Positions 5,658-62,600 of a stretch of DNA of 64,000 nucleotides are shown in pieces. Made by a program: the position numbers and the translations under genes. The stretch comes from Nyssa sinensis. Its lineage: Eukaryota; Streptophyta; Magnoliopsida; Cornales; Nyssaceae. The DNA is taken from positions 15,898,450 to 15,962,449 of the forward strand of contig CM018052.1 of assembly GCA_008638375.1 (NCBI GenBank). The letters run 5' to 3'. The stretch's first letter is position 1. Each line of letters begins with the position of its first letter. Under the pieces are notes generated by a model, which was given only the letters and a program-made list of their open reading frames with translations, had not been told where the DNA came from and searched no databases.

Positions 5658-5701
5658 AAAACTTTAAACGAAGAAAATGATATAAAGGAGAATGATAAAT
5701 G

Positions 5702-10830: not shown

Positions 10831-11248
10831 AGCCTCAAAAGCACATAGTAACCCTAGCTCTAGAAGGTATGGAACTTACACCCCATTAAATGCTTCACTT
10901 ACTCACATACTCCAACATGTCCAAACTCGTGAAAACCTAAAGTGGCTACAGCTGCTGAAAAGCAACCCAGACTCTAGAAATAGAAACAAGTATTGTGATT
11001 TTCACAAAGAGTAGGGACACACCACTAAAAAGTGTAGAGCTCTAAAACAAGAGATATAACACCTTATAGGGCGAGAATGATTAAGAGAGTTCGTCCACTA
11101 GGACGGGAGACAGAACCCAAGAGATGAGAGACCCTCTTAGAGGAGGCCATATCAAAGGCCCGAATAGAGGAAAGTTCAAAATTATTAGTAGTAACTGAAT
11201 AATCAGTATGTAATCTTCGTACTTCATGTTGACAACACGATAGTTGGA

Positions 11249-11841
11249 ATGTCTAACCGAGCTAGAAAAAAACACCCTCAAGAAGCGAAGGTAGAGCCCC
11301 ACGTTATCCAGATCTCGATAATTAAGAAAAAGATCGAAATGATACCTCAAATACAATTTTATGAATTGGACCTTGTCGGGATACATTGCCCCCGTTGCGA
11401 TGCCCTAGTTATCTCACTCAAAATTGCCAATTTTGAGATAAGAAAGGTTCTTGTGGACATTGGGATCTCCAAAAATGTGTTGTTCTATGAGCCATTCAAA
11501 CATATAAAGCTTGACTCCAAGGACATTAAAGCTTTCCTTGCAGTGATGAAATGATTCAATGGGCACTTTAGTTTCCTAATGTGTAGAAATAATCTGCCGA
11601 CCACGGTAGGGAAGAAGACGAGCCGAAGACCATGATCTTTGAATTCATGATTTTAGATGCCAAATTCCATTATATTTTTATTATTGGGAGCCCCTAGATC
11701 CATCAGACAGGGACAGTTACTTCAACCCTCCATCAGTGCCTCAAATTTTCTCATCAAAATAAAGTGGTGACCATTAAAGGATGCCAACCCATTTCCTGGG
11801 AGTGCCATGCCCTTGCACTTAAGGAAAAAGCCTCCAAATAA
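11249..11841 (+). pseudogene. Element B protease remnant
   Basis: The frame aligns to the element A protease. The active-site triad reads VLVDIGISKNVLFYEPF, with DTG changed to DIG, so it would be inactive. A TGA follows near 11551, and the later GRPWLH region is degenerate (GSP-stop-IHQ). It ends at a TAA (11839-11841) at the gag-protease/pol boundary. Confidence 0.85.
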
Positions 11842-21607: not shown

Positions 21608-24564
21608 TGTCACACCATAAATTTTCACAAACCCAAGGAGTGAGTGAAATGAATTAAGAAAAATAAATAAAAGGGCGATTAAGATGGATTCAATTGATTA
21701 TGCATTCATTCTCCCATGTTTCCCCAAGATTTGAAATGAAGCTTGCTATTAAACTTAACCAAAATGGTCTTTTAATGTCAATCAAATGTCTCTCCCAATC
21801 AATACTCAAAATTAGTCTAAGACATGTTCAAGGGTAACCTCTAATATAGCCCCAAAATGTCTTTAAATATGCTTTAGAATAGTGACCCCAAATGAGCCTC
21901 AAAATGTCCCAAGGCATAAGCCAAGAATAGGTCAAAAAGTCTACCAAAAGTGGTCCAAGGAAGTGGCCAAACATGGCTTATAAGAGTGGCCAAATATAGC
22001 CCCATAAAGTGGTCAAACATGACCCAAAAGAGTGGTCAAACATGGCCCAAAGGTTGGCCAAACATGGCCCAATAGGATGCCCAAACATGGTCCAAAAAAG
22101 TGCCCAAACATGGCTAAGAAAGGTGGCCAAAAGGGGCAGGTGTTAGGGGTGCAACAGGCTGTCGCGCATGGGGCAGTAGTGGCACAAGGGACGAGCGCGC
22201 AGGGCATGGCTGGGGCCCGCGGTAGGCTGGGGCGCGCTACAGGGGGCTGGGCATGGCCTGGGGGCAGTTTTCTGCATTTTCACTATAGCTATCTACGGCT
22301 AAATTTCTCTGTCCAGCAGCCAATTTTCTCTGTTTTTCAAATTTTTTTCCCAAATTTTAAATGCCATTTTTTTTTTTTTCCATTTTTAGCCCACTTCTTC
22401 AAGGTTTTTAACCCCCCTTTATTGGGACTTTTCTCAACTATTTATGGGGTGTTTCACACACCTAATTTCTACCTTAATTTCACAAAATTTTTAACATAAC
22501 TTCCTTTGTTTTCTATGCATTTTCCCACCTAATATTTTGCAACAATTCATATATATAATAGCATCACAATCCATCCTCGCTCGATGGCCACAATTCATGG
22601 GAATTAAACATACATTCATTTTCTTCAACATATATACATTCAAGGCACATTAAATAAATATATCCTACATGTCATTTGGACTTAAGTCCTTACATTACAA
22701 ATTAGCCCAAGACCTATAGTTCACCATTCTTCCAAGTTAAAACACAAGTCTTTTGGGCTTATACCCATACATACAAAATATGCCCCAAGGGCCAAATATC
22801 CTTCCAAGTTCTTTTCCCCTCATTCCTTCAAGACTTCATCAAGTCTCAAGTACTGGGAACCTCATCTGTAATATGATATCCCACAAGGGGTCAGCTCAAC
22901 TGCTGGTATGACATAATGTTAATGCAAAGAATAAAGTTAAGGCGTGGCATGTGCAAGTGTACATTTATAATTTACATGCCTTCCAATTCATTAATACAAC
23001 GCAATGGAAATATGCGTGACACACCCATACAAACTCTGTGCCACCATGTCTCAGTTTACAGATCGTTCACGTTGGCTCCGCGAGTACCAAACCCGTTCAC
23101 GGATTGCTCCCGTTGGATACTGGGCACTAATGCAATGGCCAATTTTGGGTTTTTCACCACAGGATGTACACCTTCATAATACATAGCACCAAGTGCTCAA
23201 CCCACACTATGTTTTCAAAGAATCACACCATGCCAATATGCTTTGATTTCACCATGCAATAATGCAATCTTAATGAAGCATTTTATCAAACACATGTAGC
23301 ATGCTTTAAATAATGCAATGTACTTAAAGCAACTATAACTTTTATATTACAAAACTTTGTCTACATGAACCTAACATGTAATCCAATCAATTTCACATAT
23401 AAACACATTACATATTCACAACCTTAACAATTTCTCAAAGATCATAAAATACATAAAGTACCAACAGATGGAATAAATCATCACTCTCAAACCACAAGAG
23501 TTTCTCTACATGAACATAAGCTAGAATGCAATGAATCAAACATATAAATAAGTTACATGTTCATCACTTTGACAAATTCTCTAAGATTACAAAATACATA
23601 AAGCACCAATACTTTGAATAAATCATAACTTTCCAACTACAAGATTTTGTCTACATGAACATAAGCTAAAATACAATGAATTATACATATAATCATGGTT
23701 CATGTTTATCACTTTACTAAATTCCCAAAGAATACAAAGAACACACAAGTACATAAACAACCAACTCTAGGTTTTCAAAGCAACTATATCCTAAGTGATT
23801 TTCTAACAACAAATAAATATATAAATCATTCAATAAACTTATAAAACACTCCTAAACTTAACCATATTCCTTACTTAGCAAAATAACATACCTAAAAGAG
23901 TTTTTCTCAACCCTAGGGAGTTGTGTTTGCTGTGCAGCTGAACCAATCAGTGAGAATGTAGCCCTTGACGTGAGGAACAACTTTCAAGAAGGAAGTCTTG
24001 TAAAAATCTAAGCCTAGAGGTGTGTTTTGGAAGCTTGAAGATTGGAAAACCTAGGTTTTCTCTTCACCTTTCTCTCATACACGACTTGTTACTGTATCTC
24101 AGACCAAAAAAATGATATTTTTACACTAAGGGGGCTGTATTTATAGTAAAGGGGTAAAAGGGCAAAATGACCTTTTTGCCCTTAATGAATCCGGAACCCT
24201 ATTACACTATAACCCGTCCCAAAATGCCTCAATTTGACATTCTAATTTAGCCAAAGTTCATAAAATTATTTTCAATGAAAATTTTCCAAAAAATTTATTT
24301 TCTCCTGCAGTCGGGTTTGGCCGATTCCACCCCTGATACCTTTTTGGTCCAATTTTTGAAACTATCTCCGAACAGGCTCAAATTTTTATAGGAGGTGTAT
24401 TTGAATATTCTAAGCATATTTTCCTTCTATGACATACTCAAAATATGCTCCTAACCATGGCTTATATCTAAAAGTGCATGTGTAGTGTCCTACCGGCAAA
24501 TAATGCATGAATAGTGTCCTACTGGCAAAACGAAAAAATTTTCCTCATTTTTTAGGTCTCTATA
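21608..24564 (-). repeat. Nested solo LTR with GTGTC target-site duplication
   Basis: Starts TGTCACACCATAAAT and ends GGTCTCTATA, and is flanked on both sides by GTGTC (21603-21607 and 24565-24569). The right end is TA rather than CA, a one-base change. The interrupted copy 2 sequence resumes cleanly across the duplication. Orientation is minus: a TATA box (CTATAAATAC, about 24142-24151) is followed downstream by a leader and a splice-donor-like CTTTTAG/GTATGTT near 23890. Length 2957 bp, no coding capacity recognised. The longest frame (22032-22499) only runs through the internal tandem repeat. Confidence 0.8.
21945..22135 (+). repeat. Tandem ~25-bp repeat (GGCCAAACATGGCCC)
   Basis: About seven imperfect units of AGTGGCCAAACATGGCCCAAA, followed by a GC-rich island (22130-22265) that is unusual in this AT-rich window. 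Unit variation is mainly in the AA/AG spacer. Confidence 0.85.
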
Positions 24565-28424: not shown

Positions 28425-30616
28425 TGTTAGCATCGGAAAAAAGGAAAGTATGAATCCTCTTTCCTATGGATTTAGAAGGATCCTGATTGTCTCTTTCCCT
28501 TAAGATGGGAATGAACGTCTCTTATGGGAGATAGAGAAATTGAAGAGTCGCCAGCTTATTTTTTAGTAAGAAACAAGCAAACCCGTTACCAATTAAACAA
28601 TACATATGAAGGAAATTGAAAGCAATAGAATGAAAATTACATCACTTTAATAATAAATACATACTAAAGGATTCCTTAACATGGATCAAATAAAGATAAA
28701 TCCTTGAAATAAAGCGAAAATACTAAAGAAACGGGTTCGGGGGCTAAAGTACAGAGTGGTAAGGTGTTAGGCACCCACCTTACCCAATCCGAATGGATCG
28801 GCCTCGAATATTCACTTGCAAGGCTATTTTGTCATGAAAGAAACTAAAAAGAGAGATGCGAGTCTGGAAATAATAAAAGATCTAGTGTAAAGAAATAAAA
28901 CAGAACTGAAAAAGACAGAAAAAAGATTCGACACGGGCCAGAAGGCTTCCTACGCTTTCAAAAGACGGAATCAGAGTCACGTAGTTCTCTAGTTTACCCT
29001 CTTCTATCAAGAGTGATAAAAGAGGCGAGATCAACCGGATCTTAAAAAAAACTATTATGGGTTTGAAAGCGTACCTTATTCAGTTGTGGGAGTCGGGCAA
29101 CACTTCAGCTAGGAAGATCTGATCCGGATGCTTCAGTTAGGTAGATCTCTGACTTGTTCTTTAGATTGGAAAGCGTCGCTTCGACTTGCTTCATGAAGGG
29201 AGGTTGTCACTTCATCAGGGCTTCAGCCTCGAGAGAGAGAGAGAATTCTTGTAGAGAGAACTCTAGAATTAAACTGACAGCATGAGGCTATGGAAATTGT
29301 TTCTTTCTCCGTCCCCCAAAATTGATGGCCACGGGTTCTATTTATAGGAAAATATAGAGCTTTAATCCAAGGGCTTAAGATGAAACCCTAAAATAGAGAA
29401 CTAGGATAATGTTTTGAGTGATAATTATCTAATTAAATAAATATAAAATTAAATAAGAATGATTATCCTAACTAAATAAATTAATAAATAATTATGACAA
29501 TGCACAAACTAATAGAATTAGCTTGTACATGCAAGAGCCAATGAGATAGAAGAAAAATAGAATTTAATTGGAAAATAAACTTTAAAGTGAAAATGTCCAG
29601 CTTCAATGTATCTCCATTTAAGAAAATATCAAGCAACCAGATTTATGAAAACTCTAAAAGTGGAAAGTCCTAATTAAGCCTAAATAGACTACTATCACTC
29701 AAGATTACCAAATCTTCTCTTAATTCGGTGGAGAATTTCTAAATTGCCACAAGATATGTGAAAAGACCAAATTGCCCCCGATTTGTCTCCAAAGGGCTAA
29801 AATTATCAAAATACCCCTATATAGGTAAAATGATACAGAAATTATGAAAATTTTCCTCAAGCAACTAGGAAGTCCTATTGAGGGTAGGATTATGCCAAAT
29901 TACCAAAATGCCCTTAGTGGGCAAAAAGGTGCTGAAATTATGAAATGCCCTCCGGTGGGTAGGAAAGTCCTAACAAGAGTGAGACTCTATCAAAAGGAAT
30001 CCTAATAGGAATAAGACTCTATCAGGAGGAGTCCTAATGGAATTGAGACTCTGACAACAGAGTCCTAGCGGGAATAAGACTCTGTTAGGAAGAGTCCTAA
30101 CGGGAATAAGAGTTTGTCAAGAGGAGTCCTAATGGGAATAGGACTCTGTTAGAAGGAGTCCTAATGGAACTGAGACTCTGGCAGGAGAGTCCTAATGGGA
30201 ATAGGACTCTGTCATGAGAAGTCTTAATGGGAATAAAACTCTGTCAAGAGGAGTCCTAATGGAACTAAGACTCTGGTAGGAGAGTCCTAGCGAAAATAAG
30301 ACTCTGTGAGCACGAGTCCTAATCGAACTGGGACTCTAACAGGAGAGTTCTAGCGAAAATAGGACTTTCTCAAGAGGAGTCCTAATGGAACTAGGACTCT
30401 GGAAAGAGAGTCCTAATGGGAATAGGACTCTATCATGAGGAATCCTAATAGAAATCGGACTCTGGTAGGAGAGTCCTACCGGAACTGGGACTCTGTTAGG
30501 AGGAGTCCTAATGGAAATAGGACTCCATCGGGAAGAGTCCTACTTGAAGTAGGTTTTTTGGTATAATTACCGAATTGCTACTATTTAATCAAATGTCACA
30601 AAATGAGGTGTCTACA
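28425..30616 (-). repeat. LTR with hairpin minisatellite in U3
   Basis: On the minus strand it begins TGTAGACACCTCATTTTG at 30616 and ends CCGATGCTAACA at 28425, with TGT...ACA ends. A TATA box (CCTATAAATAGAA, 29337-29348) supports the orientation. Just beyond the end the minus strand reads TGACGACTCCACTAGGGA (about 28400-28417), which resembles the GGCGACTCCACTGGGGA sequence often found next to plant gypsy LTRs. The plus-side end abuts the copia RT fragment abruptly at 30617, so it inserted there or the junction is recombinant. Confidence 0.65.
29961..30550. repeat. Minisatellite of ~33-bp hairpin units (about 18 copies)
   Basis: Each unit contains GAGTCCTA, a 7-base spacer such as ATGGGAA, then TAGGACTC, so both arms are reverse complements. 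Variants GAGTC...GACTC keep at least a 5-bp stem. Units are separated by about 10 bases such as TGTCAAGAG. It lies in U3, upstream of the TATA box of the surrounding LTR. Confidence 0.9.
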
Positions 30617-32800: not shown

Positions 32801-35307
32801 GGAGAATTAGTTCAAAAGTACAATTCAATCACATACATGATGATAAGATAAAATCTATAGGCAATGCATACATGATGTGAGTGTGTGAGATCCAAATCAA
32901 ATACAAAAGACCATTTTACTCTTCAAGAACCAAGTCGACCCATAGTGATACACGATAATGTCTTTTGGACAAACTTGTGGAAGAACGACCATCGAGGTAC
33001 TCACTCGAAGAACTTATGTATGGATTACACACAAAGCACATTTTATGAAACTGGATTAGCCAATTACAATATTGGACCTCATGGTCCTGACATACTCATT
33101 CTTTGGTATTCCGTGACAAAATTGGAAAACAAAGTATACGAACAGAATACCAAAATCAATCACCCCGAAAGAGCCAGATAGAAGGGAATCATACATTTTG
33201 ACTCAGTATCCTATACTAGAGATATCACTTAATACTGCTCAATAAGTAGCTACCTGTTTCCTGCACAACACCTTCAACTATACCACTTGAGATCGCATCA
33301 AAAGAGATATATCAAATAAAACCAATGAGATCACATAATAGATGAGTATCAATATAGAACAAGGTACAACAAACATGGAAACCATATGCAATTAAAAAAA
33401 GACATGAGCAATATAAAGTAATTCTAAGCTATCTCATACATATGCAAAAAAAATGTATATTACTCCCTCTTAATATATGCTCAAAATATATAGTCTCCCC
33501 CTTTGTACAATTTAACGAAAGGGCAGTGTCCAGCATGAACTTGATGGCATTAACCACAACACGTGATCGTAGGCAGTACATCCTGCTTCACATGCAAACT
33601 AACTTGCCACAAAATCAAATTCATGATTGATTTTACATTAGGATCAAATTATGCAACAAACACTTTTCTTATACTGGGCAAAAATAACTATATTTTTCTA
33701 CCATGGTAAAGGAGACAACCTTCCTTGTGAGATTGCACTAGATCATTGGTTAATAATAGAATACACTTTCCCTTTTTTTTTATATTGTACAAGGTTATTT
33801 TTGTACCATCAAATGAGTCCTTTTTTTGAAAAACTTCAATTGCTAAGAAGTAGCATATCCCATAACCATCCAATAATATTATGCCGCATGGGTAGAGCCT
33901 TTTTCAATGTAGGAATAGTACAAATATGTCAACATTCCACTAGGAAAGTAAGCCAAACTCATCCAAAGCCAAAACCAAGAGACATTAGATAGAATAGTTT
34001 TTACCTTGGACAACGTATAGAAGTGCAAGGAAGTAAGTTTTCCAAAATTGGGTTGCTCCATGATTATATTCAGCTCTTAACTTTCGTCTATGCAACATCC
34101 ACAATCAACAACCATATCAACCAACATCCTTTACGTGATCTGCCAAATAGTTCTGTATAAAGAAAAATGAATATGCACAGGGACCCAAATGAAAAGGAAA
34201 AGAGACTCCCAGGAAAAGGCAAATACATAATTGTAAATAACTTACAGTTTATCAGGATTTTCCAAATAACGATCCTTATAAATTATTTAGTTCATAAAAG
34301 AAAGTGACCAAATTTCCATATCAGTTAGGTCATGAAGATGTTTATTAACCACAACAAATTCACCGAAGAAAATGATAAAAAAATATTATTAAATGGCAAC
34401 AAGGAGCAGTTATCTTTGAAAAAACTTAATAGCATATAATGGAAACACAAACCTTAAAACTCTACAACCGTAGATATTGGAGGTATATGGCTTAAAAAAT
34501 GTTACTTCCAAGAATCTGGCATCTTGTAGTAGCAGGCATAATTGCCACATGTGTTACAAACCACTTGCCAATTTAGGGTTTCCCTGCAAGAACACTTATC
34601 AAACATGTTGAAGGCCATGTAAGAAAATTTCCAAAATCAACAAGAAGGAATTGGCATAGATTTCTTGCCATCGTAGAGCCAAAGTAGGCAACTTAAACAC
34701 GATGATGAAACTTTTTTTTATTTTTTATTATAAGCAACATAATATATATGCGTAAATGATATCCCTCCACTACATCCATCCACCCCAAAACCACAAACTC
34801 ACCAAACATAACAAGGATAGCCTAGTGCATGTACTAACTTCCCCTATCCTAATTCTTATTCAAGCCATCTTTTATTCACTCAATGCTCACCCACCTTCCC
34901 TCCCGAACAACCTCACTTCCCATTACCACTCAGAAGCACGTACCTACATCTGTCTATTACACAAACTAACTCTATTCTCACATCTACCCCCAAGCTTCCT
35001 TCCTCTCGACCATCCCACTTCTTCATCCTTTCCTTTCACCTATCACCCATCCCTTACGGCTCTTCCGATATACACCTTATGAGAACTTAAAATTTTGACC
35101 CCCCACATCCCACCCTACTTTCTATATCTCCATCATTTCTGACCATCTATTCACAAGCCTACCCTTGAAAAACTACATCATTGACCCTCTTAGTGCTCGC
35201 AATATGCCCCTCATTTTTTGCGCCCTTAACTCGTAGGGCCGGACTATGGGGTCGTTGGACCCCATTAAGGTAGGTAATAGGATTAACCATCCTAGTTAAG
35301 TACATAT
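32801..35307. other. AT-rich stretch, no recognisable gene
   Basis: Only short frames exist (the longest is about 110 codons in a C/T-rich stretch near 34756-35082, low-complexity and without a known domain). No TE domain, RNA gene or tandem array was recognised. It could include decayed host intergenic DNA. Confidence 0.55.
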
Positions 35308-35812
35308 GTCACATCCCGAACCCCACCCTACGCGGATGTTGAGGACGTGATGCCAGTTAGCCGCCTTGCCGGTTTACCGACCAACAATGCGACCAACCAA
35401 AGGCAAACTTCTGAACTTAACGACGAATTGCATTCCAAATGTAGGGTCAGAGTAGCAGAATTTTAAAACTTTTTCATCTTGGAAATGCAACTCATTTATA
35501 AATACCATAGAGGTATGTACCACAGAGCAAGTCTAAAACTAGATAGCTAATAACTCTAACCACAGAGCATATCTAATCTCTCTAGAGTACCATTACCATG
35601 AGCCATGTCCCAATACATCTAATGCATATCAATGAAGTCAATCGTATCATGTCACTCACTTGAATAACCAGATTCAGTCCATAAGAATACAAGTCTCCAC
35701 AAATTAGTGCCATCAGATCCTTTACTTGGAATGCCTCACAGCCTACTAGTATCGTCTCCTTATGCCTTCTAATCCACCAGAGATAAATCCTGAAAAATGT
35801 TAGGATAATGGG
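35308..35812 (-). repeat. LTR4: 3' part of an LTR1-4 family member
   Basis: The plus strand starts TGTCACATCCCGAACCCCACCC, the reverse complement of the family's GGGTGGGTTTCGGGTCGTGACA end seen in LTR2 and LTR3. It contains a terminal-exon acceptor-like CTAACATTTTTCAG/G (minus strand, exon starting 35789). The rest is cut by insertion of the element C LTR at 35813. Confidence 0.7.
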
Positions 35813-39300: not shown

Positions 39301-39994
39301 TTTCTTTTTTACTTCTATACCCTGCTTTTGTGTAGGCATTCTGAGCTTGATGTAACTTTTTCCGGATTATCAATAAGACTGAGCATTTTTCTTTAATTCT
39401 AGTGTACTTTTACCTTTTGTCAACATCAATTATATTTTTCTAGAACTTACGCATCTTCTAGAGCACTTGTCGCTAACTGTCATAAAACTGTTTTTCTTGC
39501 ATTCGTTGGTAGTAGGCTGGGCGGTGTAACATCCGTGCCCTGAGTAGGTTCTGAGTAAGGACCTTCCAAAATTTTGTAACTTTTGAGCAAAAACCAAGTT
39601 GACCAAATGTTGTCCCAAGTTGTTGATGCTCTATAGTGTATGACTGGGCTCCAGCCCTTTAATTCTTGTAGTTGTTATAAGTAAAATCACTCAGGAACCT
39701 ACTTTTAGGTCCATCCTTCCAAGCAAAGCAACTTGTAATGATGACACTTGAGCAAATTGTCAAGGGCTTATCTGCCGAGCTAGAAGACTTGTGATGATAA
39801 CTGGACTGACGATATTTGAACAAATCTTCGATAATCAGAGCCTCCGTTCTTAGAGCACCAGAACTTAATGATAAGAATTTAAGTAATAAGTTTTGTAAGA
39901 ATGTTGGTAACCATGTAACTGAGTAGTAGAGTCGAGCTTCTTCCCTTTAACTTGGGAAATAACTGAGTAATTTTGGTGAGGTGGATCATACAAG

Positions 39995-40432
39995 AGGTCT
40001 GTTCACTGAGATGGACCTGACATAAGGTCTATGCATTAAGATGGACCAGATATAAGGTTTGTACATTAAGATGGAGTAGATATAAGGTCTGTACATTAAG
40101 ATGGACGAGACATAAGGTCTGTACATTGAGACGGACCAGACACAAGGTCTGTACATTGAGATGGACCAGACGCAAGGTCTATACATTGAGATGGACCAGA
40201 CGCAAGGTCTGTACATTGAGATAGACGCAAGGTCTTTACATTGAGATGGACCAGATGCAAGGTCTGTGCATTAAGATGGACCAGACATAAGGTCTGTGCA
40301 TTGAGATGGACTAGACACAAGGTCTGTACATTGAGATGGACCAGACGCAAGGTATGTACATTGAGATGGACCAGACGCAAGGTCTGTACATTGAGATGGA
40401 CCAGACGCAAGGTCTGTACATTAAGATGGAAA
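39995..40432. repeat. Tandem array of a 30-bp unit behind integrase C (about 15 copies)
   Basis: The consensus GGTCTGTACATTGAGATGGACCAGACGCAA is repeated, with one unit shortened by several bases near 40218. It starts within 40 bp of the integrase stop. Because 30 is a multiple of three, all frames show decapeptide repeats; these are a by-product, not genes. Confidence 0.95.
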
Positions 40433-40465
40433 CACTTCATGGGATTTTTTGAAAGGAAAAATTCT

Positions 40466-41480
40466 TTATTGATAATACTTCTGTAAGTGTTCTATATTCC
40501 AAGGCCTGGGAACAGGTTTCCCATCCACGCTCTCTAGCCAATAGGTGGTAGGTCTGACTATCTTTATTATTTGATAAGGGCCTTCCCAGTTGGGTGACAG
40601 CTTTCCCATGGTTGGATCCTTGGTGTTTTGAAACACTTTTCTTAGGACAAGGTCCCCAACTTGGAAGCTGGCAGGTTTAAGCCCTAGTTTAGAGTGGCTG
40701 ACCATCTTGTGTTGATATGCTCCCATCCTGACCCCGGCTTGCTCCCTCTTTTCTTCAAGTAAGTCCAAGTTTTCTGCGAGCTGCTGATCATTGGTCTCCT
40801 AGTCGAAAGTCTCAGTCCTCAGGGTAGGCATACCGATCTCAATAGGGATCACTGTTTCGGTGCCGTAGGCAAGTGAAAATGGAGTTTTCGACGTTGGAGA
40901 TCTTCTAGTTGTTCTGTAGGCCCAGAGCACTCCAGGGAGTTCTTCAACCCATTTTCCCTTAGCCCCTTCCAATCTTTTCTTAAGGGCATCAAGGATCGTT
41001 CGGTTGGTGACCTTTGCTTGCCCATTGGCTTGGGGATGACCAGGTGAGGAGAAATGTTGATTGATATGTACGTCTTGGCAGAATTTTTTGAAGATTTTGC
41101 CAGTAAATTGCATACCGTTGTCTGAGACGATCACTCGTGGTATGCCAAACCTGCAGACCATATTCTTCTAAGTGAAACTTTTGACTTCCTTCTCTGTAAT
41201 GTGTGTTAATGGTTCTGCGTCCGCCATTTTGAGAAGTAGTCAATAGCTACTAGTAGACATTTCCTGTTCGGTGTAGCTTTAGGCAATGGGCCTATGATAT
41301 CCATCCCCCACTGTGCAAAAGGCCATGGGCTTGTGATAGGGATGAGCTCATGGCGGGGCTGGTGTTAGTAGGGAGCGAACCTTTGGCGCTTGTCACATTT
41401 TTGGGCGTATTGTTTTGCCTCCCTCAATATTCCAGGCCAGTAGTAGCCTTGTGTTAGAGCTCGGTGTGCTATGGTTCTGC
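40466..41480 (-). pseudogene. Element C integrase
   Basis: From the zinc-binding segment (CDKC-like region, about 41390) through the core with SDNGMQFTGKIF (second catalytic Asp kept), LWAYRTTRRSPTSKTPFSLAY and the C-terminal GDLVLRKVF and PNWEGPYQII motifs to a stop near 40466. Breaks: a TAG at 41168-41170 on the Trp codon that is also a stop in A and B, a frame change near 41240, and a stop near 40799. It is better preserved than in B, but not a single open frame. Confidence 0.9.
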
Positions 41481-43808: not shown

Positions 43809-44523
43809 TTTGGCGGCCTTGACCTTGAGTGCGAGAGCATGACATACTCTAAAGGTTGGTTGGCATCCTTTAATAGAATATATAGTCTGATCTTGGACGT
43901 ACTTTAGGCATTGGTGGAGGGTCGAGGTGACTGCTCCCATCTGGTGTAGCCAAGGTCTCCCAATTATGACATTGTAGGGGGATTTGGCATTAAGAACCAT
44001 GTATTTAGTTACTATGGTTTTTTGTCCGTCCCCTTCTCCTACTGTAGTGGCAAGGTCAATCCTTCCTAATGGAGTATTGAGATTCCCATCAAACCCTGCC
44101 ATGATTACACTAGTGGGCTTGATGTCACTAGGGTTGTGCTTCATCTGCTCGAAAGGTTTGTAGAATAGTACATTCGTCGAACACCCAGTATCCACGAGGA
44201 CTCTTCGGATCTCAAAATTAGCAATTTTGAGGGATATGACAAGGGCATCACTATGAGGATAGTGTACCCCTTCAAGATCTTGGTCTGTGAACTGGATTTC
44301 AGGTGCTGGCCTTAATCTTTTCTCCACATTAGAGATCTGAGCGATGCTGGGAGTGGCTCTGGCCTCCCGAGCATACCGTTTCCTTGATCTGTTGGAAGTT
44401 CTTGTTGTAGGGGAGTCTGCATATAGGACAAAGATTACTTGGTTGTTCTGTCGTGGAGGCTCATTCCGTCCTTCCCTTTGCTCCTGTTTCTGGTCAGGCC
44501 TTCTCTACTAGGGCCTATTCTCA
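43806..44523 (-). pseudogene. Element C gag C-terminus and protease
   Basis: An open frame from the truncation point at 44523 carries the basic RSRKRYAREARATPS region (equivalent to WARKRYAREAKVAPN of A) and the protease with RRVLVDTGCSTNVLFYKPFE, later IIGRPWLHQMGAVTSTLHQC. The DTG triad is intact. The rest of gag is replaced by LTR1. Confidence 0.9.
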
Positions 44524-45400
44524 CATCCCCCATACCCACCCTGTGCGGATTTGGGGCATGCAACCGGCCAGTTAGGCACCCATCGGTTTTTTTTTTTAAA
44601 ATCAAATGCCGACGATAATCCTAACCACAGGCCATTCACCGGTAACATCCAAGTACAATGCATTCAATTCATATAAGTATGCAGCGAAAATGAGAGAATG
44701 CATAACACCTTGGCAGAGCCATTAATACATCCATAGTTATCTACTACATCATTGTTCTACAAAAGATAAGAGTCTTAGGTTTTAGATACATCACGTTCAG
44801 AAATGGGGATTTAGTACAAAAATGACTAGTTCATAAGGTTCTTCAAAATAATTCCTCCGGGTCTCTAACCCGCTAATCCTGATTGCTGGGTCCCTCACCT
44901 GAAAAATATTAGGGAATGGGGTGAGCTTTAAAAAGCCCAGTGAGTAACACGGGTCCCCTGTCATGGGTTTCAAACCATTGTTGTTTATAGAGCATGTGGG
45001 TGAATCAGGCATTTCGGAGAAGGTAATTAAATACGTTTATTTGAAACAGTATTAAAAACCAGAGTACAGTTAAAACAGCAGGGTGACAGAACAGATCAGT
45101 AACGAGCAGAGCAAAACAGTGTAACAAAATAACAGTACAGTATGCACAGATTAAACAGTGCAGTATGCTCATATAGTGCTCAAGACTAAAGTGGTACCAA
45201 GAGTCAGTTACTCTTTCAGTAAAAACAATGATAGATTTATTGCAGTACAGAACAGAGGAATCAGACAGAGTAAAACAAAATCATGCATTGAGTAAAAGCA
45301 TGAAAAACAGTGTATCAGATAAAACAGTACAGTACAGTATTTAAAATACAGTAACTAGAAGGTGTACTTATACACCAATTCAGGAGTCTAGGTTACTTAC

Positions 45401-45868
45401 CTTGTGTGGTAATGGGACTTAACTGAGAAGCCTTTCTCTTCTTTCTATCCTTCTTTATCCTAGAAAATTTATGAACATTTCATAAATCTCACATGAAATT
45501 TAACTTGATTCCATTTTAATTCAAAATTCAACTTGAGTTAGACTATCTTGCTGTCTATGTGTTTTCATGATAACTGAAAATTACCTTTGTATCCATTCTT
45601 TCAGGGTTTCAGTGTCTTCTTGTTTTTTTAACTTAGCTTCTGCAATCATTGCCTTGGTGGGCATTTTGTACATAAAAGGCCGGACAGAAACTACCTCGGT
45701 TGTTTTGGCTATCTTTATATTTTGTTCAATCATCTTTTGTTGCCATAATAGTTCTTGCATGAACTCCTGCTGTTTCTTATCAACCGCTCTTTCAGCTTTA
45801 GTCATGATAGTGAACTTCTTTGGTTCCTTACCCTTTCCCTCCATGACAGTCTTGAGTTTTTTTTTATC
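45401..45868 (-). CDS. Conserved LTR-encoded ORF (LTR1 copy), spliced
   Basis: ATG at 45842-45844; intact exon of about 87 codons, rich in Lys, Gln and Glu with a long helical/coiled-coil look, containing KQQEFMQELLWQQKMIEQNI and TEVVSVRPFMYKMPT. It matches the LTR3 ORF at roughly 60% identity by eye, with mostly conservative changes. Acceptor ATGTTATAG/G precedes it (exon start 45868) and donor CAAAG/GTAAT follows (45585/45584). Mini-exon 45459-45401 lies between TTTTCTAG/G and ACACAAG/GTAAGT. In phase, the frame passes through it into the terminal exon from 44898, stopping at TAG 44873-44875, predicting about 114 residues. No signal peptide, membrane segment or known domain recognised. Function unknown. 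Confidence 0.65.
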
Positions 45869-47495
45869 CTATAACATAACCTCAAGATGTCAGGATATGT
45901 ACCACCTCTAGGTAGTTCGGTCATTTTGTCATGTGCATAGACATGGAATTATTTAAGTTTTCATTGGGATAATTTTTAGCTCATTCGGATATTGTTTAGA
46001 CTTGATACAGGGCTAGGGGTATTTTGGTCATTTCACAGTTGTGAAGTTTTGATTTCGATTCGTCATCTGATCACGTGTACAGCCTTACAAGTATCAAGGT
46101 TTCTATTGGTTTCAGTTTCGTCTTAATCGGACTTCATTTGGGCTTCAAACAATGTTAGGGGCATTTTGGTAATTTCGTGCGTCATATTTTTCGGTACTTT
46201 ATTTGCTAGTACGGACTTCAGCATTGAGTCTGGAATATCCGACATAGTCAAAATGGACTATCTTTTAGTGTAATTCGGTCCTAAGTGTCACTAGGGGCAG
46301 TACAGTTATTTTTCCTTTTCGGGTCTGTATTTTTCGGGACTTAATTTTGCAAATCGGACTCTGCCATTGAGTCCAGAATGCTTGAAATAGTGAAAATACA
46401 CTATTCATTTGATTTATTCGGCCTCCGTTTGACTTATTTATGACCTAGGGGTAATTTGGTCATTTTTATTTAATTAATAAATTAATTAAATAAATAAATT
46501 TATTATTTATTAATTTATCAGGGGTATAAATGGAATAAAATATCAAAAACTGGGCCAGAGTGGAATTTTCCAAAACTGTTGGGGCTGTTTTGTAATTTTT
46601 CAAAAGATTTAAACTGAACCAAAAGGTTCAGTCCGTATGCAATTGAACCAGACCGGTCCAGTCCGGTTTTAACCGGTTCAAGGTACTGTGCTGACGTCAG
46701 CCCTAAAATTAAAAATTTTAAAAAATCAGTTAACAGAACGACGCAGTTTTGGTTTATGGGTTTTATCCGTTTCTTATTCGGGTCGGGGCCCGACCCGAAG
46801 ACCCGAAGACCCGATCCATGCCCAACAGTGTTCATCGTCCCCACCCGTCTAGGGCTACTGTTGCCCTAGAAAATTGTAGAATATTCTCCCTCGATTTCGT
46901 GAAGTTTTAGGTTCTGTTTTCAACAGGTTTCGATCCTAAACGACTTCTGGGAGTAAAGCCAACCTTTTGGCATTAGTTTCAAGCTTCAAATTCAACAATG
47001 GAGGCTTGTTTCAACCGATTATTGTGGAGAGTTTCAGTTGGGTCATACGGCCTTGTTTCTCAACCATTTTGCACGAGGTTTGGTCCTCTGTAACCCTCAC
47101 AACAAGATCTTCAATTACCAATCCTTAAATCTCAGTTTAGGGGTCTGATTTAGAGATTTGGTTTTTGGGCCGAAAAGAATAGCCTCGATTTTAAGGGCTT
47201 ACACCTAGGTTTCTAGGTCGCGGATGGTGATATTTAGGGTCCTAGGATGGTCTATTTCGGGTATTGACAAACGAAAAGTCGTTTGGTTGAGGTCGATTCA
47301 GACCTGCAACCCGAGGTCCATCAATGGCGGTTTGCTACGGGTTTGGGTTTTTGGGGCAGTTTTATGGGTCCAAGTATGCACAACACTCCAGGTTTCAATG
47401 TCCAACCATTATACATGCATTTACAGTCCCAAAGGAAATAAAACAGTAGCCAAAAAAAAATCCAAAGAGAAAATTTAAAATTTTGGCTTGCTTAC

Positions 47496-47600
47496 CTTCG
47501 AACAGTGGTCTCTTCTAGGGTTCGTATTCAAGCAAAAGCCTCCCGATGGAGTAGGTCCAGTCCAGCCCTTTAGTTCTCAGTCCTTAGCTTCCTTCTAAGC
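47496..47600 (-). other. Candidate first exon and splice donor of the LTR1 transcript
   Basis: The minus strand donor GTTCGAAG/GTAAGCAAGCC (47496/47495) aligns with LTR3 GTGAAAG/GTGAACCCACC (57675/57676), both followed by CAAAAA.TTTTAAA. It defines a non-coding leader exon and an intron of about 1.6 kb. Confidence 0.5.
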
Positions 47601-47640
47601 TCCTTCAATGGTTACACCAATGCACACACTTTGTGTATAT

Positions 47641-54934: not shown

Positions 54935-57555
54935 TGTAACACCCTGACCCAAATTAAAGCATAATTATATAGTTAAGCATACTTAAAAAAATCTCAACTA
55001 CTTAATCGACCATATCATGAGACTAAGGACTAGATAGTCAAGTTTAGCCGAAAATTTGTATGCATGAGAAAATTTGGGCAAATCCTAATGAACTTTGACT
55101 TTAACTACTCTAATGCAAGACGTGATTAAATAATACAAATATATGTATAAAGTAACCCACAACGTAGGGCATATCAAGAGAACATATGCTCATGCATGTA
55201 CATAACCACACATTCATGTATATACATGAAAAGTGGAATACCACCACCCCAAAACAAGGGCCTATGTGTTGGATTTTCCCACTAAGAGCAATAATCATAC
55301 CAGACCACACAAGCCCTCATGAGAGATGGAGTGAAGAGAGGTCCAAGACACGTGTCAAACATGCAAAACTTGAAATGATTTCTTACAACCTAATATGTAA
55401 AAGGGAGATCAAACTTTCTGTCACTAGCACACAAGTGAGGTTGAGAGAGAAAGTCACTCGTGCATGAGAAGAAATAGAACCGAGCTGGGACTAGAGAGAG
55501 GAAGAAAAAAGACAAAGAAGAAAGAAAACTTGAGACTTCAAAGTTTACAAGGTTTGAACCGATCTATTGGTTTGTTTCTATTTCTTTGTAGGTTATGAGC
55601 TTAGTAGGTGATAGAAATAAGATTGCATGTGTCCCAAATGGCTGGTTCAAGCTCGAACCGCCATTAACGAAGCTCAAAAGCTTGCCCAGAAACCAAGTTA
55701 AACAAAACCCATTTATGTGATCGAGGACCAAAACTAGACTAAAAATGGATTACAAAGAAACAAAAACCACACGTTTTGGCCAAGAAATAAACATTTTATA
55801 GAGAGTTGTAGGTTTATCGGATAATTAGACTACCTTAAAAAATGAACAAAAAGCTTCATTTTGAAGCCATGGAATTATAGCCCTTGAAATTTGGAACACA
55901 CTGGTCCAAAAATGAACCATTTTGGTGGAGAAATGAGGGAGAAACAGTGAAGTTCCAGTGGTTACTAGAAAAGCATGAGAGAGACACACCGATCGATCTA
56001 ACTCGGTTCAAAGGACCAAATCGGTCCCAAATGAACCAAATAATAATTAGGACGCATTTAGTGAAAAAAATGAGTCAAAATAGTAGAATAAAATGGGTTT
56101 TTAAAACTTAGAATTTTGCAGATTCCAGTCACCGGAGCTGGAGGGGGTGACTGGAACCCCCATCGAAAAATTGATGAGGAAGACATTGTTCAGGATCTCG
56201 GGTCGGGTTCTAACCGAATAATCGAATAGGTTGGATTAATTCAAAACATTGTAATTTTATTAACGAGGGTGACGTCACGCTGACACAATGGACGGGATGA
56301 ACTAGTTGGTTTCCAATAGAATTGAGCCAGTTGGTTTCCAACAGAATTGAACCGGTTCACTTAATTTTGGACCGGACCAGATGGTTTTATTTAAATAAGT
56401 TTTTGAAATTCAATTTTGACCCCTAAACTCTTATTTTACTTCACTGTGGCCCAATCTTCTGAAAAATTTATTCAATCAAGTCCTTGAAAAATATAAATTA
56501 TTATATTTTAATTTATGGAATTTCAAAATTAAGAAATTACCCTTAAAATTAAGGGAAATTATAAAAATACCCCTGAACTTAAATGACCAAAATGCCCTTA
56601 TTATGTGAGAAAAACTCCACCTTAGCATAAAATGAGTTAGACGAAACCATATCAAGATCTGTAAAAAAACAAACTTATGTTTTTTTTACATTCTAGACCC
56701 AATGGTGGGCTTCGTTTGAGCAAATTAATTTTTGAAATACATAAATAGAAAAACTATACTAATTTCAAAAAAGTCCAAAAGGCTAAATTAAGCTACCAAA
56801 TGACCTTTGATGACTATGAGGGTACCTATCCTAAAGTTTTTCGACGTTCTGGACTCAATGGTGGAATCTGTTTCGTCACTTAAGAAACCAAAAGTACTGA
56901 GATGCAAAATTGGCCATTTTAAGGCACCTTTAAGGGTACAAAAAGCTATCAGAAGAGTATAGAAGAATCAATAAAGATCTAATTTGGTTATCATAAGTCC
57001 ATAAACCTAAAATACAACCCATAGGACTAAAAGCTAGCAGATCCATCAATAAATCCAAAATAAGCCTTTTGTAATATCCCGACCCGGGATACCGGGTCAC
57101 ATGACACGTATTACGAAGAAAAGAAATTTTATATATATATATAATTAATTAATTATTAAATTAATTAATTAAGTATAAGAAAAGTATATATATTAATTAT
57201 ATGATATATGTATATGTATAAAGTGAAATGTGTATGTATGGATATGAAAACATGTATGTATGTAAGTATGTATATGTATAAGTGAAATATGAAAAGAGTG
57301 AACAGTGTGTGAAAAGGGGTGTGTGTGTGTCGGCTGGTGTGTGTGTGTGTGTGTTGTCTTATATATGTGTATATGTATATATATGTATATATTATATGTA
57401 TAAATATCTCAAAAAAAATTAATGTAAAGCAAGCTTGGGAAGAACAAAATTTATGAGATGGGAGGGCTATGTAGGGCTATGAAATCAGAAAGAAGAGAGA
57501 GAGGACTGTAGAGAGAGATTTGGAGGAGAGAGAGAGAGAGGTCGGTTATCTTTGC

Positions 57556-57565
57556 TTTAAAAACC
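57556..57565 (+). promoter_or_regulatory. Candidate TATA-like promoter element of LTR3
   Basis: TTTAAAAACC lies about 110 bp ahead of the leader-exon donor, after a GA-rich microsatellite (57500-57540). It is weak as a TATA box; position is the main argument. Confidence 0.3.
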
Positions 57566-58739
57566 CAAAGCATGCAAACCATGCTTTCTTCTTGCAAAAG
57601 AAACCAAAAGAAGAAGAACTGAGGAGATAGAAGGAAGATTCAGAGCAAGAAAGAAAGATAAAACAGTGGTGAAAGGTGAACCCACCAAAAACTTTTAAAA
57701 TTCTCTCTCTAGAATATTTTGCATGTGTTAAGAGATTTAGGTTATGTTATGTATATATGATGCTTAATATATGTATAAGACATGATTAGGCATGAAAACA
57801 GGTCATGAGAACAGTGAAAAACACCTAACCCACGAAAAATCTCCATTGAAGACCTTGCCCAAGGCAGGTCTGAATCGATTTCCTTCAAGCTTGATTTGGC
57901 TTATCAAGACTTAAAGTAGACATTATAAGCATGTTAAAAACATATAACCGCGACCATAAAGCTCAAGAAATGGACCCCATGTGGTGAGTTGCAGGTTACG
58001 GGTTTGCAACCCAACCCCTTAAAACTCGGTTTAAATCAATATTTAAGAACGAGATATGAATCCCCATGAAGAGGGGATCATAACAAACGAAACCCCATGA
58101 ATTTTGGTTAAGAAATAAGCATGAACCATAGGTTTTACAGTTCGGGTTATCATGGTTTAAACCCAACGATTGAACCATATTCGAAGCCCTAAATCGATTC
58201 AAAAACACGTATTAAGACATTAAGAAGTGATTGGAAAAGAAAACAGAGAAAATAGACTTGAAAAACATCACGAAATTGGACTGGAAAAATCTAGGGTTTT
58301 ACAGTGAACAGTGTCGACTTCGTGGGGAAGATGACACTGTTCGGGTCGGGTCGGATTCGGTTACAGGTCCGGGTCGAACCAGATCCAACGGTCAGGTTAT
58401 GTAAACGGTGACGTTTTGGTTTAAATGTTTTAAAACCCTAGGGCTGACGTCATCATGACGTTAGCATTATGTCAAGAACCGACTAGACCGGTTGGGTTGT
58501 AACTGAACCGGACCGGTTCACTTATATTTGGACCGAACCCTTTGGTTTTATAATTTAATTAAAAATCAAATAAACCAACACTCTTTGTATTTACGGATTG
58601 ACCCCAGAACTTCTGGACAATCCTCCTATGGCCCAACTGATGAAGAATTTATGCAATTAAGCCCCTGAAAAATAATTAAATAATAAATTTAATTATTTAA
58701 TAAATAAAGTAAAATTTCTATTATCCCCTTGGGTAATAA

Positions 58740-59290
58740 ATAGAGCAAATGAAGTCCAAATTAAGCATATTAATAGTGTATTTTAACTATTTTGGACATT
58801 CTGAGACCAATGGTAGGGTCCATTTTACGAGACGGGGCCCGAAAAATAAAAACACGTAAGGGGTAAATGACCAAAATACCCCTTGACCAAAATTTAACAA
58901 GTTATTAGTGTATTCTTACTATCTCGGACCTTCTGAGTCCAATGGTGAGGTCCACGACACAAGATGAGGTCCCGAACATAAAGACACGTAAGGGGATAAA
59001 ATGACCAAATTACCCCTGGTACCTCAAAAGTCAAATTAAAAGCAGGGAAGGTCTAAATTGACTTTCTTTGACATCCCGGACTCAATAATGGAGTCCAAAT
59101 TATGAAACGAAGTACGAAAAAATATGACACGTAAAACGATAAATGACCATTTTGCCCCTTTACATATAAAAGTCCGAATTAGATTCTAAGAAAGCCTAAA
59201 CCAACTTTCTTCGACGCTCTGGACTCAATAATAGAGTCTATTCGACCAAAAGAAGTATCTAAAATAAAAAGACATAAAATTTGATGAATA
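58740..59290 (+). repeat. Four tandem ~143-bp units with a quasi-palindromic GGACTC...GAGTCC core
   Basis: Cores at about 58803, 58935, 59078 and 59221 share the pattern TTCTGGACTCAATGGTGGAGTCC with substitutions. The same core occurs in LTR1 (46198 and 46337 on the minus strand), LTR2 (56693, 56848) and copies 1 and 2 (7085, 19976). It lies in the presumed first intron. Confidence 0.7.
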
Positions 59291-59426
59291 GCATCTGTTA
59301 AATGACTATGGACTGAAATATTGCCAAGGCATTAAACTAAGGCAAGTACGAAGAAAATGAAATACGAAAAGACACGACAACATATCAACCTTAGAATGAA
59401 ATTTCTAACTCATAAGTTGTTCTTAG

Positions 59427-59906
59427 GTGATAAACATGGAAGAGCAACCCAAGAAATCCACCATCATGAATAAAGCCCAAAGGGCCAAGGATCCCAAGCA
59501 ACAAGCTTTCATGAAAGACCTATTGTGGCAACAAAAGGTAATTGAAAGGCACATAAGAATCGCCAAGGCCACTGAGGTGATTTCGGTTAGGCCCTTTATA
59601 CATAAGTCACCCACCAGGGAAATGGTAGCTGAGGCCAGGAAAAAGAAGGAAGAAGCAAAGAAAAGAAAAGAGGAAGAAAAAGAAAATACCGAAACCTTAA
59701 GTGAGTGGGTAAAAAGGTAATGCGTGTTTCTTACTCATTCTATATGATACCACTATAAGATAAGTTGTAGTTAACTTATGTGGTAAAGGAAAAAGTTAAG
59801 TTTAGTTAACTAATTTCATTATGAAATTTATTGAGTCTTTTTCTAAATTGTTTAGGATAAGGGCTGATAAGGGCAACACTCCTCAGTAGGGTCTACGGTA
59901 TATGAG
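59427..59906 (+). CDS. Conserved LTR-encoded ORF (LTR3 copy), spliced
   Basis: The exon begins at acceptor TTGTTCTTAG/G (59426/59427); ATG at 59436. The frame is open for about 94 codons with KQQAFMKDLLWQQKVIERHI, TEVISVRPFIHKSPT and a strongly charged Lys/Glu helix, ending LSEWVKR. The stop TAA overlaps the donor AAAAAG/GTAATG (59716/59717). If spliced to 59856 (acceptor AAATTGTTTAG/G), the frame continues ten codons to TAG at 59887-59889, predicting 104 residues. Mini-exon 59856-59906 ends GAG/GTGAGT and is 51 nt. No known domain; it looks cytosolic or nuclear, helical and basic. No disabling change is seen in a region where all other TE genes are broken. Confidence 0.7.
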
Positions 59907-61020
59907 GTGAGTAACCTTGTATTTGAAGTGGAGATTTAACTCCATGGATTTGAAAAGGTTTTAAATGCAAAGACATGAAATGTTTGAAATTCCAAATTTA
60001 GTGTTTACATGATTCAGTTTTTAATTGTTCTGTTTTATAACCCCATTGTGACATGCTCAGTGATTGGTTTCTATAACAATTTTTCCTTCAAATACTTTTC
60101 AGCATGCCTAGTTAAAATGTAATTATTGTTAAATATTCTGAATTTGCTTATTTCAAGTATACGAATGTTTATTACGAATTTATGAAAAGTATCTATGAGA
60201 AAAGTCACATGATAAATATTTTATAAGATAATGGTGCATAAGCACACAGGCATCATTTTGGGTTTCTTCGGATCTCATTGACCTGTCAAAAAACCACATA
60301 GTCAGTATTTTGGGTTCTTATTGTAACTCATTGACCTGTCATTTGAAATGCCCGGTAGCAGGATCTAATCCCCCAGGCAAATGAGATATCTCCATTTATA
60401 AGTAAGATGGGAGTCCGGTTCGAAACGGATTCCACTAATGGAAGTGATAAGATGACAAATGGTTTGAAAATGGAAGCAGGTTTTTACTCTCATTTTCAAT
60501 ATGCATATGTTTGAGTTTATATACTCTATTTAAGAAATACATGATATGTTATATGTTTTAAAGTTCATATGTATAAGTTTAGCTTGAATACTTTAAATGT
60601 TTCCAAGCTACATGTTTTAAGGAATGCATATATTCTGTATTCAAAGTATACGAACAATTGGCGGTGACTATTTTACAACTCTTATGTACTAAACCACTAC
60701 TAATTGAAAACCCCATGACAAATACTGGAATTGCTCACAAGCTTAGATTAGCTTACCCGGACTTTGTTCGGACCCCCCCTTTCAAGTGATTCAGCAGACA
60801 GGGCCTTAAGGACGATGGCGATGAGTCTAGCTGTTTTTGGAAGGATATGTTAAGTAGTTTCTTTTGAAGAACTTATGAACACTAGTAGTACATTTGTATT
60901 AGTAAACAATGTAAGAGTATGTAACAAGCCCTCAGGGCAACCGAATATGTATTGTATTAATGTATGAAGTCTTTAAGTTTTCGTTATACTCTGAATGTGT
61001 AACCATGTATGCAATGTACG

Positions 61021-61130
61021 AAGCGGCAGTATCGGACGGATGTGCGTAAATTTAAATAAGAAAAGAAAAGAAAAAGTTTTTCACGCTTCCGCAAAACGTA
61101 TGTCGCACATCTATTCGATACCGCTGCTTA
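61021..61130. repeat. Inverted repeat near the LTR3 3' end
   Basis: Arms 61021-61046 (AAGCGGCAGTATCGGACGGA...) and 61104-61130 (...ATTCGATACCGCTGCTTA) are about 26 nt with a few mismatches and a 57-nt A-rich loop. The transcript could fold into a stem-loop shortly before the LTR end. Confidence 0.75.
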
Positions 61131-62600
61131 TGTCAGCCTTCGCCCAAGGGTCCCCAGACTTGAGGGTGGCGGTCGCGATGCGAGATCCGCACAGGGTGGG
61201 TTTCGGGTCGTGACACCTTTGAGTAAGAATTGAACTAAGAAATGTTTCTTAATTTATAGGATCGACGAAGGGAAATGAGAAGGAGATCTCTTAAAAGAGG
61301 AAAACCATTTTGAAGGTAAGTAAACCTGAACTCTAATTGGTGGTGTTCCTTAGCCACGTTGTGATTATATTTTCTCAATGCTGCCAGCTTGTATTCTTTT
61401 GTACATTCCTATCAGTTATTTTGATTCCATAACTGGATATTCATGACCTCCCTATGGATATATTGACATCCTTATTGTCGATATTCTGTTATGGTTGCTT
61501 ACACATTGTTATAACCCTTTGTTGATGGATGTTGGAAAACTATTACGATATCTTTTGTTGTGGACACAATAATCTATGTATATGTGCATACCTTGTGGAA
61601 TTCATTTGATTATAACATTGGTTTTTAGCACCCGGGGGTTGTGTTTGTCACAACGCCCATCTTGACTCTTTAGATGTTGATGACCTACGGGTCGGTGTTT
61701 GGGTATAATACCTAACACGTAGTCTTGATAAGGACATGATTAATTGATGAGAGCTCTTGGTGCATTTTAGGGAAACCCAAAAATGAGTGGTAAACCCGAA
61801 TGAGTACTGTTTGGGGGTAGCTAGACTCTATTTGTTGATATCATTTAATGGACTCATTATTCTTGTATAACAGATTTTACACTCTGATCACCATTTGATG
61901 ATGTACTCTTTGATTAATAAATATGTTTTCCAAGCTTATCATTCAATTCGATTGACTTCTTGTGGTTCCTGGCAGCTGGATATTACAAGTGTTAAATCCA
62001 TTATTGTTGTCTTGTTCAATTGGTCACATCTCAATTCGAACTAATTTTGGATTGTACCTTTTGACTAAAGGTTCACCCTTATTGGTTTTGTTTTCCCTTG
62101 TGATTGACTATTTCTTGTAACTTTTCACTTACCCCCATCATATGCATTTTGTTGTCTAAATTGTACTAAACCCATGGCAGAGTAAGGAAATTTACTTACT
62201 AAGTTAAGTTAGCTCATCCCATATTTATATTACATTTTTCAAGAAGGTATGCAGCAAAGGGATAGTAGAGTGCTCACTGGCAACAAACGTCACGCTTTTA
62301 TTCACAGACTTATCTTCCTCATGTAATGAATAGATTCCTTTTATATTTTGATGTAACAGACTAAGTATGATATAGTCTCTCTCTCCCATGAGTACACGTC
62401 TTGGGGTTGGCATTTTGTTAAAGGATCTATAACTTAAAAATCACTTTAATCACGGTCTATAAACCTTATATGATTATACTACATATTTATTTAATTTTGG
62501 CAACACTATTAGTGATTCTCAATTGAAATTGGTTAAGTACAGCTTGAGAACCACCTCCCACGACTCCTAATCCGCATAGGGTGGGTTTCGGGTCATGACA

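Follow-up and report, generated by a model that had tools for sequence, protein, structure and literature searches.

A small intron-containing gene in long terminal repeats of a Ty3/gypsy retrotransposon family of Nyssa sinensis

Results

Open reading frames in two LTRs

The subject of this analysis is a small gene situated within long terminal repeats (LTRs) of retrotransposons in the genome of Nyssa sinensis. The window, i.e., the 64,000-nucleotide stretch of contig CM018052.1 from position 15,898,450 to 15,962,449, holds one copy in LTR3, on the plus strand, and another in LTR1, on the minus strand. The findings described below very probably reflect an intron-containing gene that is carried in LTRs of a Ty3/gypsy chromovirus-like family and kept by selection as the elements propagate.

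Intact frames of about 90 codons had been claimed for both LTRs in an earlier reading of the DNA letters (the sequence-only reading) and were recovered, measured from stop to stop, as 97 sense codons in LTR3 (59427-59720, plus strand) and 95 in LTR1 (45868-45581, minus strand). The junctions proposed with them (59716/59856 and 45585/45459) corresponded to exact GT..AG sites across which the frame stays open. Coding exon 1 of LTR3 comprises 94 codons, and the spliced LTR3 product is 104 residues long with its stop within the mini-exon. Homology of the two proteins, also claimed earlier, was borne out by a BLASTP comparison of exon 1 plus mini-exon, in which 52 of 90 positions were identical and 70 of 90 similar. 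Chance was rejected as the origin of the frame, since 20,000 neutral simulations gave at most 49 identical codons, compared with 55 observed.

Searches of the host genome (1.0 Gb) returned, as loose first-look counts, 3971 candidates for the LTR3 protein and 3738 for the LTR1 protein; among the 150 best-scored matches to each, 125 and 143, respectively, contained no stop. A DNA query consisting of 59427-59906 gave 1073 first-look candidates, of which 40 were scored; their matches, of 95-100%, spanned no fewer than 479 of the 480 bases queried. The possibility that the frame is confined to the two copies in the window, raised earlier as grounds for rejecting the gene, is at odds with this abundance of related frames. 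Taken together with the simulations and with the precise absence of intron 1 from eight of eight inspected copies (see below), the abundance indicates that the frame is more than a chance occurrence.

Frame integrity and selection

Conservation was assessed in 20 LTR3-like copies (group A) and in 20 further copies, which bring in a second group approximately 80% identical (group B). In group A, a stop was noted in one of 20 copies and loss of the ATG in two of 20; an exon-1 insertion or deletion (indel) relative to LTR3 was present in one of 19 copies, as opposed to 12 to 19 of 19 for each of 13 other 282-bp segments. Stops, ATG loss and exon indels were all absent from the 20 further copies. 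Indels in intron 1 relative to LTR3 were found in 20 of the 20 further copies and 18 of 19 group A copies, and since nearly all of the latter also differ, part of this signal may be private to LTR3. Splice sites were similarly well kept. Thus, the AG before exon 1 was present in 19/20 group A and 20/20 further copies, the GT after exon 1 in 20/20 and 20/20, the AG before exon 2 in 19/20 and 19/20, and the GT after exon 2 in 20/20 and 20/20, while the AG/GT of the predicted intron-0 donor was present in 18 of the 19 group A copies with sequence there. The flanking LTR DNA, described earlier as barely alignable between LTR1 and LTR3, was not uniformly so; an upstream block at 58602-58871 aligned at 69.9%, a value comparable to the 70.0% noted for exon DNA. 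This block lies within predicted intron 0, contains no recognised frame and ranks with the most similar stretches of group A.

Selection on the LTR-encoded protein, as suggested by the sequence-only reading, was supported by the ratio of nonsynonymous to synonymous divergence (dN/dS), by the indel pattern and by the synonymous bias of shared variants. Exon differences between LTR1 and LTR3 numbered 21, 13 and 42 at codon positions 1, 2 and 3, and estimates for this pair were dN 0.246 and dS 1.41 by YN00 and dN 0.243 and dS 2.13 by maximum likelihood (NG86 gave no usable dS). Within group A, mean dN was 0.0205 and mean dS 0.108 (171 of 190 pairs computable). Codon models gave an omega of 0.474 for the 20 group A copies and of 0.251 for 40 copies, when group B was added. 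A dN/dS near 1, which had been named as a refuting result, did not occur, all values being well below 1. Differences between groups A and B amounted to 6%, 13% and 45% at codon positions 1, 2 and 3.

Shared and private variants were compared as ratios of nonsynonymous (N) to synonymous (S) changes, for which the neutral expectation is about 3.2:1. Among 38 copies (L029, L030 and LTR1 left out), these were N24:S39 for shared variants versus N41:S28 for private ones (Fisher p 0.016). In group A, private variants were near neutral (N23:S9) and shared variants constrained (N7:S12), which points to selection during propagation, group B being a reservation that is taken up below.

Genomic traces of splicing

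Evidence of splicing was sought as genomic DNA in which exon 1 is joined directly to exon 2, with the reversed pattern as control. In LTR3-like groups, 21 such junctions were found (11 exact, eight with one mismatch and two with two mismatches) and in the LTR1-like group four, all exact, compared with no matches to the reversed pattern in either case. Eighteen of the 21 places were also among the matches of the protein search, where their open frames measured 106-109 residues as opposed to the usual 97. Intron 1 was exactly missing from all eight loci inspected (L050-L057); intron 2 is still present in them, as is intron 0 so far as it was fetched, rearranged in the case of L052. Since these genomic copies carry precisely the predicted exon 1/exon 2 junction without the intron, intron 1 has been spliced in vivo.

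Two intron-less copies, at C6:14044805 and C6:14050651, are 5846 bp apart with a gag match between them (C6:14047620-14048651, one stop), an arrangement that fits a single gag-only element with both LTRs lacking the intron, as would be expected from reverse transcription of spliced RNA. Intron-less L054 was 97.4% identical to intron-bearing L049 but 92.2% identical to L055 and 91.8% and 92.1% identical to L056 and L057. We infer at least three separate intron losses in the LTR1 group and one or more in the LTR3 groups, although recombination among LTRs could reduce this number. Intron 1 was retained in 42 of 42 copies read, a count that takes in LTR1 and LTR3 but leaves out L010, which is the partner LTR of L009; the genome RNA must therefore usually be unspliced.

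The retrotransposon family

Twenty stretches around matches to the DNA query were fetched. Eleven proved to be solo LTRs with perfect 5-bp target-site duplications (TSDs) and two hold one complete element, while TSDs were imperfect in three (L015, L016 and L023) and not judgeable in four (L017, L018, L019 and L027). One solo LTR, L028, begins with TA rather than TG. LTR copies nested in LTRs of the same family, or beside them in inverted order, were seen in L023, L025, L027, L018 and L021.

The complete element, C1:45708476-45718617, is flanked on both sides by the TSD CTTAC and carries the gene in both of its LTRs, to which LTR3 is homologous. These LTRs (4176 and 4188 bp, 98.3% identical) have the paired TG..CA termini of Ty3/gypsy LTR retrotransposons, accompanied by a primer-binding site (PBS), TGGTATCAGAGC, 3 bases past the LTR, a polypurine tract (PPT) and the short TSD. 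The internal region of 1778 bp leaves no room for pol, and its only long retroelement frame is a 350-residue gag with Retrotrans_gag, Ty3_capsid and zinc-knuckle matches. With an internal gag and no pol, the element resembles TR-GAG elements, in which two LTRs likewise surround a gag-only internal region; coding LTRs are not known to feature in the description of TR-GAG elements. In L027, too, the LTR follows a PPT and a gag, the latter 97% identical. The LTR3 group thus includes gag-only members. Complete elements with PBS and PPT rule out the classification of LTR3 as a DNA transposon.

The genome search with the LTR1 protein revealed ten same-strand neighbours spaced 8531-8569 bp apart. One of these intervals, L049, has the order LTR end, PBS TGGTATCAGAGC, gag (frame-broken in this copy), protease, reverse transcriptase (RT), RNase H, integrase, SH3_Tf2-1, chromodomain-like match, PPT and LTR, and so shows the Ty3/gypsy domain order of gag, protease, RT-RNase H and integrase. 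The chromodomain match (PF00385, residues 883-928 of 932; E 0.00081) scored 19.7 bits, below the 25.1-bit cut-off. The downstream LTR begins TGTAACACCCC, the same 84-residue frame is present in both LTRs, and an LTR length of about 3.78 kb was estimated from frame spacing. LTR1 was assigned to this gag-pol-bearing subfamily because it is 79-83% identical to the LTRs of L049. The expectation that the frame would lie in LTRs next to a tRNA-Met primer site agreed with both complete elements examined, the PBS TGGTATCAGAGC being what we take to be a tRNA-Met site. From the ends, the PBS and the domain order, the family presumably belongs to Del/Tekay. At one locus (G000:C12:35804022-35821389), three LTR1-like frames follow one another at distances of 8558 and 8561 bp, which gives the impression of two elements with one LTR in common.

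The predicted protein

A model of the exon-1 product contained helices at residues 13-18, 20-46 and 61-93 (mean pLDDT 76). A fold search of the PDB with this model gave no matches, and a sequence search a single match with an E value of 0.63. Pfam matches were all below cut-off, and three protein-collection searches yielded, as relatives outside the host genome, only three ENA proteins, whose contigs do not exceed 2277 bp; no host ancestor came to light in these searches. Pattern searches of prokaryote and viral contigs (202, 140 and 144 stretches) produced no relative, and plasmids no match. Exon 2 of the LTR1 group adds a lysine/arginine run, which we take to resemble a nuclear localisation signal. 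The best guess from these sequences is a small, basic and possibly nuclear accessory protein.

Discussion

Weighing the alternatives

Several observations weigh against the interpretation of the frame as a gene maintained by selection within LTRs. The copies compared were picked by similarity in the exon region, which lowers divergence there, and the matches scored in the protein searches were the best ones, which biases them toward intact copies and overstates intactness. No exon 1 was found in LTR4, an older relative in which LTR3 is nested, so that not all related LTRs carry the gene. A genomic pattern joining the candidate upstream exon to exon 1 had no matches, compared with one for its reversed control, and the global confidence of the fold model was low (pTM 0.32). 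In group B, private variants were also constrained (N18:S19; shared, N17:S27), and neutrality after insertion is accordingly not a general pattern. Finally, intron 1 (59717-59855 in LTR3, and its equivalent in L031-L048) differed by only 8.7% between groups A and B whereas third codon positions of the neighbouring exon differed by 45%; within group B, the corresponding values were 3.9% and 13.6%. Base composition was ruled out as the cause of this low divergence. Recombination near the exon edge or constraint on the RNA is possible, and purely protein-level selection does not account for the likeness of intron 1 between the two groups.

The last of these observations, together with the conservation of blocks that lack a frame (57070-57569 and 58670-58969, mean identity 91-95%), would be expected if the region were constrained as RNA or DNA, for example as a leader or as a signal for splicing or packaging, with the open frame arising as a by-product. 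Such constraint does not explain why differences between groups A and B are concentrated at third codon positions, why exon 1 is nearly free of indels when adjacent segments are not, or why LTR1 and LTR3 are conserved at the amino-acid level although their first introns are 49% different, and we consider this explanation very improbable. Slightly less probable again is a domesticated product of the host, with selection acting on the plant through one or more LTR copies. All that is needed for expression can lie within one solo LTR, and perfect TSDs flanked a solo LTR in 11 of the 20 fetched stretches, but the constraint extends over many dispersed copies and two element types, and the contrast in group A between neutral-like private and constrained shared variants, absent in group B, is that of single copies decaying after insertion. 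Many copies are recent, and the near-neutral private variants of group A, its one copy with a stop and its two without an ATG might be taken to mean that the frame was passively carried or captured and is open just from youth. This is the least probable of the three, since LTR1 and LTR3 are saturated at synonymous sites and yet have intact frames and proteins 65% alike, the neutral simulations never matched the observed identity, and shared variants are strongly synonymous.

Proposed organization and role of the LTR gene

For a gene kept by selection in LTRs, with copies in gag-pol-bearing and gag-only elements alike, the transcript would probably start in the LTR and consist of a 5'-untranslated region (UTR) exon, a long intron, exon 1, intron 1, exon 2 and a 3'-UTR exon. 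The promoter is predicted to lie within 0.5 kb of the LTR start, where mean identity is 91-95%, and the candidate 5'-UTR exon of LTR3 was placed only by its 3' edge, the intron-0 donor. Expression would yield a basic helical protein of about 104 residues for the LTR3 group, with a somewhat longer counterpart for the LTR1 group. Its location in the LTR means that the gene occurs twice per element, in copies that reverse transcription makes identical, and that it can remain complete in a solo LTR; leftover single LTRs may therefore still make protein.

The protein would most likely serve the retrotransposon in trans, as an accessory (regulatory) factor with element RNA or LTR chromatin as its target. 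Candidate roles are control over the splicing or export of element RNA and protection from silencing, each single biochemical role being unlikely when taken alone. More widely, a spliced accessory gene in the transcribed part of the LTR could make every solo LTR a potential source of a factor that sets the fate of element RNA, as spliced LTR message versus unspliced packageable genome, or that counters LTR silencing.

Comparison with known systems

In the usual view, LTRs are control DNA that encodes no protein, and solo LTRs are inert remnants. The LTRs described here carry a spliced gene that is under purifying selection and common to gag-pol-bearing and gag-only elements, and the copies that lack the intron indicate that reverse transcription can act on RNA spliced within an LTR. 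Protein genes in LTRs are known from animal retroviruses, e.g., the superantigen of mouse mammary tumour virus, which is likened to the plant gene here by its location. Among open-licence literature on frames in LTRs, no title or beginning of an abstract described a protein gene in a plant LTR.

Additional open reading frames (aORFs) of plant LTR elements are placed in the internal region in the available text of a review (PMC7264820). In the part available of a further report, the 5'aORF of sunflower Tekay group 2, which are chromoviruses, is conserved, 402 residues long, present in 500 of 523 elements and predicted to be nuclear (PMC11728184). So far as these texts extend, aORFs resemble the LTR gene as extra frames beside gag-pol that are conserved in many copies and have no assigned function. 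The sunflower frame, likened here by description and not by sequence, differs in being internal and 402 residues long; the LTR gene is inside the LTR and thus outside the definition of an aORF, is doubled in each element, survives in solo LTRs, is spliced and is much shorter. By analogy, the LTR gene would work like an aORF at another place.

Revolver, from rye and its relatives, is described in the accessible portions of two reports as a 3-kb repeat, dispersed and present in many copies, that holds a single spliced gene for a 139-residue protein, with imperfect inverted ends of the TGT type and partial likeness to LARD LTRs (PMC2851119, PMC3203089), and with a first exon that varies between subfamilies while later exons are alike (PMC3203089). 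On these descriptions, and not on protein sequence, it can be set beside the LTR gene as a small spliced gene in a dispersed high-copy repeat. Transcripts of Revolver are backed by cDNA, whereas the outer exons and promoter of the LTR gene are predicted. The Revolver ends TGTgAcGCCC... and TGTaAtGCCC... (PMC2851119) resemble, by eye, the ends of LTR3 read inward (TGTAATATCCC... and TGTCACGACCC...). Revolver may, by analogy, be a solo gene-encoding LTR, a reading that gives a testable explanation for it and that, if true, would place the architecture in grasses (Triticeae) too. That gene-encoding LTRs form an overlooked class in plants, with solo LTRs as sources of trans-acting factors and Revolver as a second case, is conceivable but rather doubtful. 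For annotators, the present results are a reason to seek genes in LTRs rather than to mask them.

Features of the window

Coordinates of the two gene copies and of LTR4 are given in Table 1.

Table 1. Positions of LTRs, exons, introns and TSDs in the window
Feature	Position	Strand	Basis
LTR3, complete solo LTR, 4146 bp (TGTAATATCCC...GTCGTGACA)	57070..61215	+	Termini and flanks read directly
Left TSD of LTR3, CCTTT	57065..57069	.	Direct reading
Right TSD of LTR3, CCTTT	61216..61220	.	Direct reading
LTR3, predicted intron 0 (candidate 5'-UTR exon to coding exon 1)	57676..59426	+	Inferred; splice-site conservation
LTR3, coding exon 1, ATG at 59436	59427..59716	+	Frame, dN/dS, indel pattern
LTR3, intron 1, 139 bp	59717..59855	+	Exactly absent in 4 inspected LTR3-group relatives; 21 genomic joined-junction matches
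LTR3, mini-exon 2, frame ends at TAG 59887-59889	59856..59906	+	Sequence reading
LTR3, predicted intron 2; candidate 3'-UTR exon from 60795	59907..60794	+	Donor GT 20/20 and 20/20; acceptor by eye
LTR1, LTR of the gag-pol-bearing subfamily	44518..47611	-	79-83% identical to L049 LTRs
LTR1, coding exon 1, ATG at 45844	45585..45868	-	Sequence reading
LTR1, intron 1	45460..45584	-	GT..AG; precisely absent in 4 relatives
LTR1, mini-exon 2, open to next donor AAG/GTAAGT	45401..45459	-	Sequence reading
LTR4, left part	54935..57069	+	LTR-like start; weak LTR3 matches
LTR4, right part, LTR end 62600	61216..62600	+	LTR-end match 62570-62600

LTR1 gave no match to the initial 0.74 kb of its closest fetched relative's LTR, and neither a PBS nor an internal region of its own was found beside it. 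It abuts an unrelated Tat-like gag-pol remnant, whose gag match starts at residue 572 of the protein used for comparison. In LTR4, an exon-2-like stretch was recognised by eye in the right part (61260-61315), and no TSD of its own was recognised; beyond LTR1 and LTR3 the window contained no further exon-1 match.

The earlier statement that every other transposable-element gene in the window is broken was too strong, as a gag-containing frame of 604 codons (3294-5108, minus strand) is open. It belongs to a Tat-like element (190-5663, minus strand) with RT and RNase H frames nearby. Two more Tat-like gag relatives, at 9848-11829 (plus strand) and at 44468-43818 (minus strand, adjoining LTR1), were 42-55% identical to the gag of this element. 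Another LTR-like terminus, at 35307-35337, shares its motifs with the LTR ends of the present family, and tandem arrays were noted at 39899-40488, 29958-30566 and 21918-22154, all degenerate and spaced for the most part at 30, 32/63 and 23 bp.
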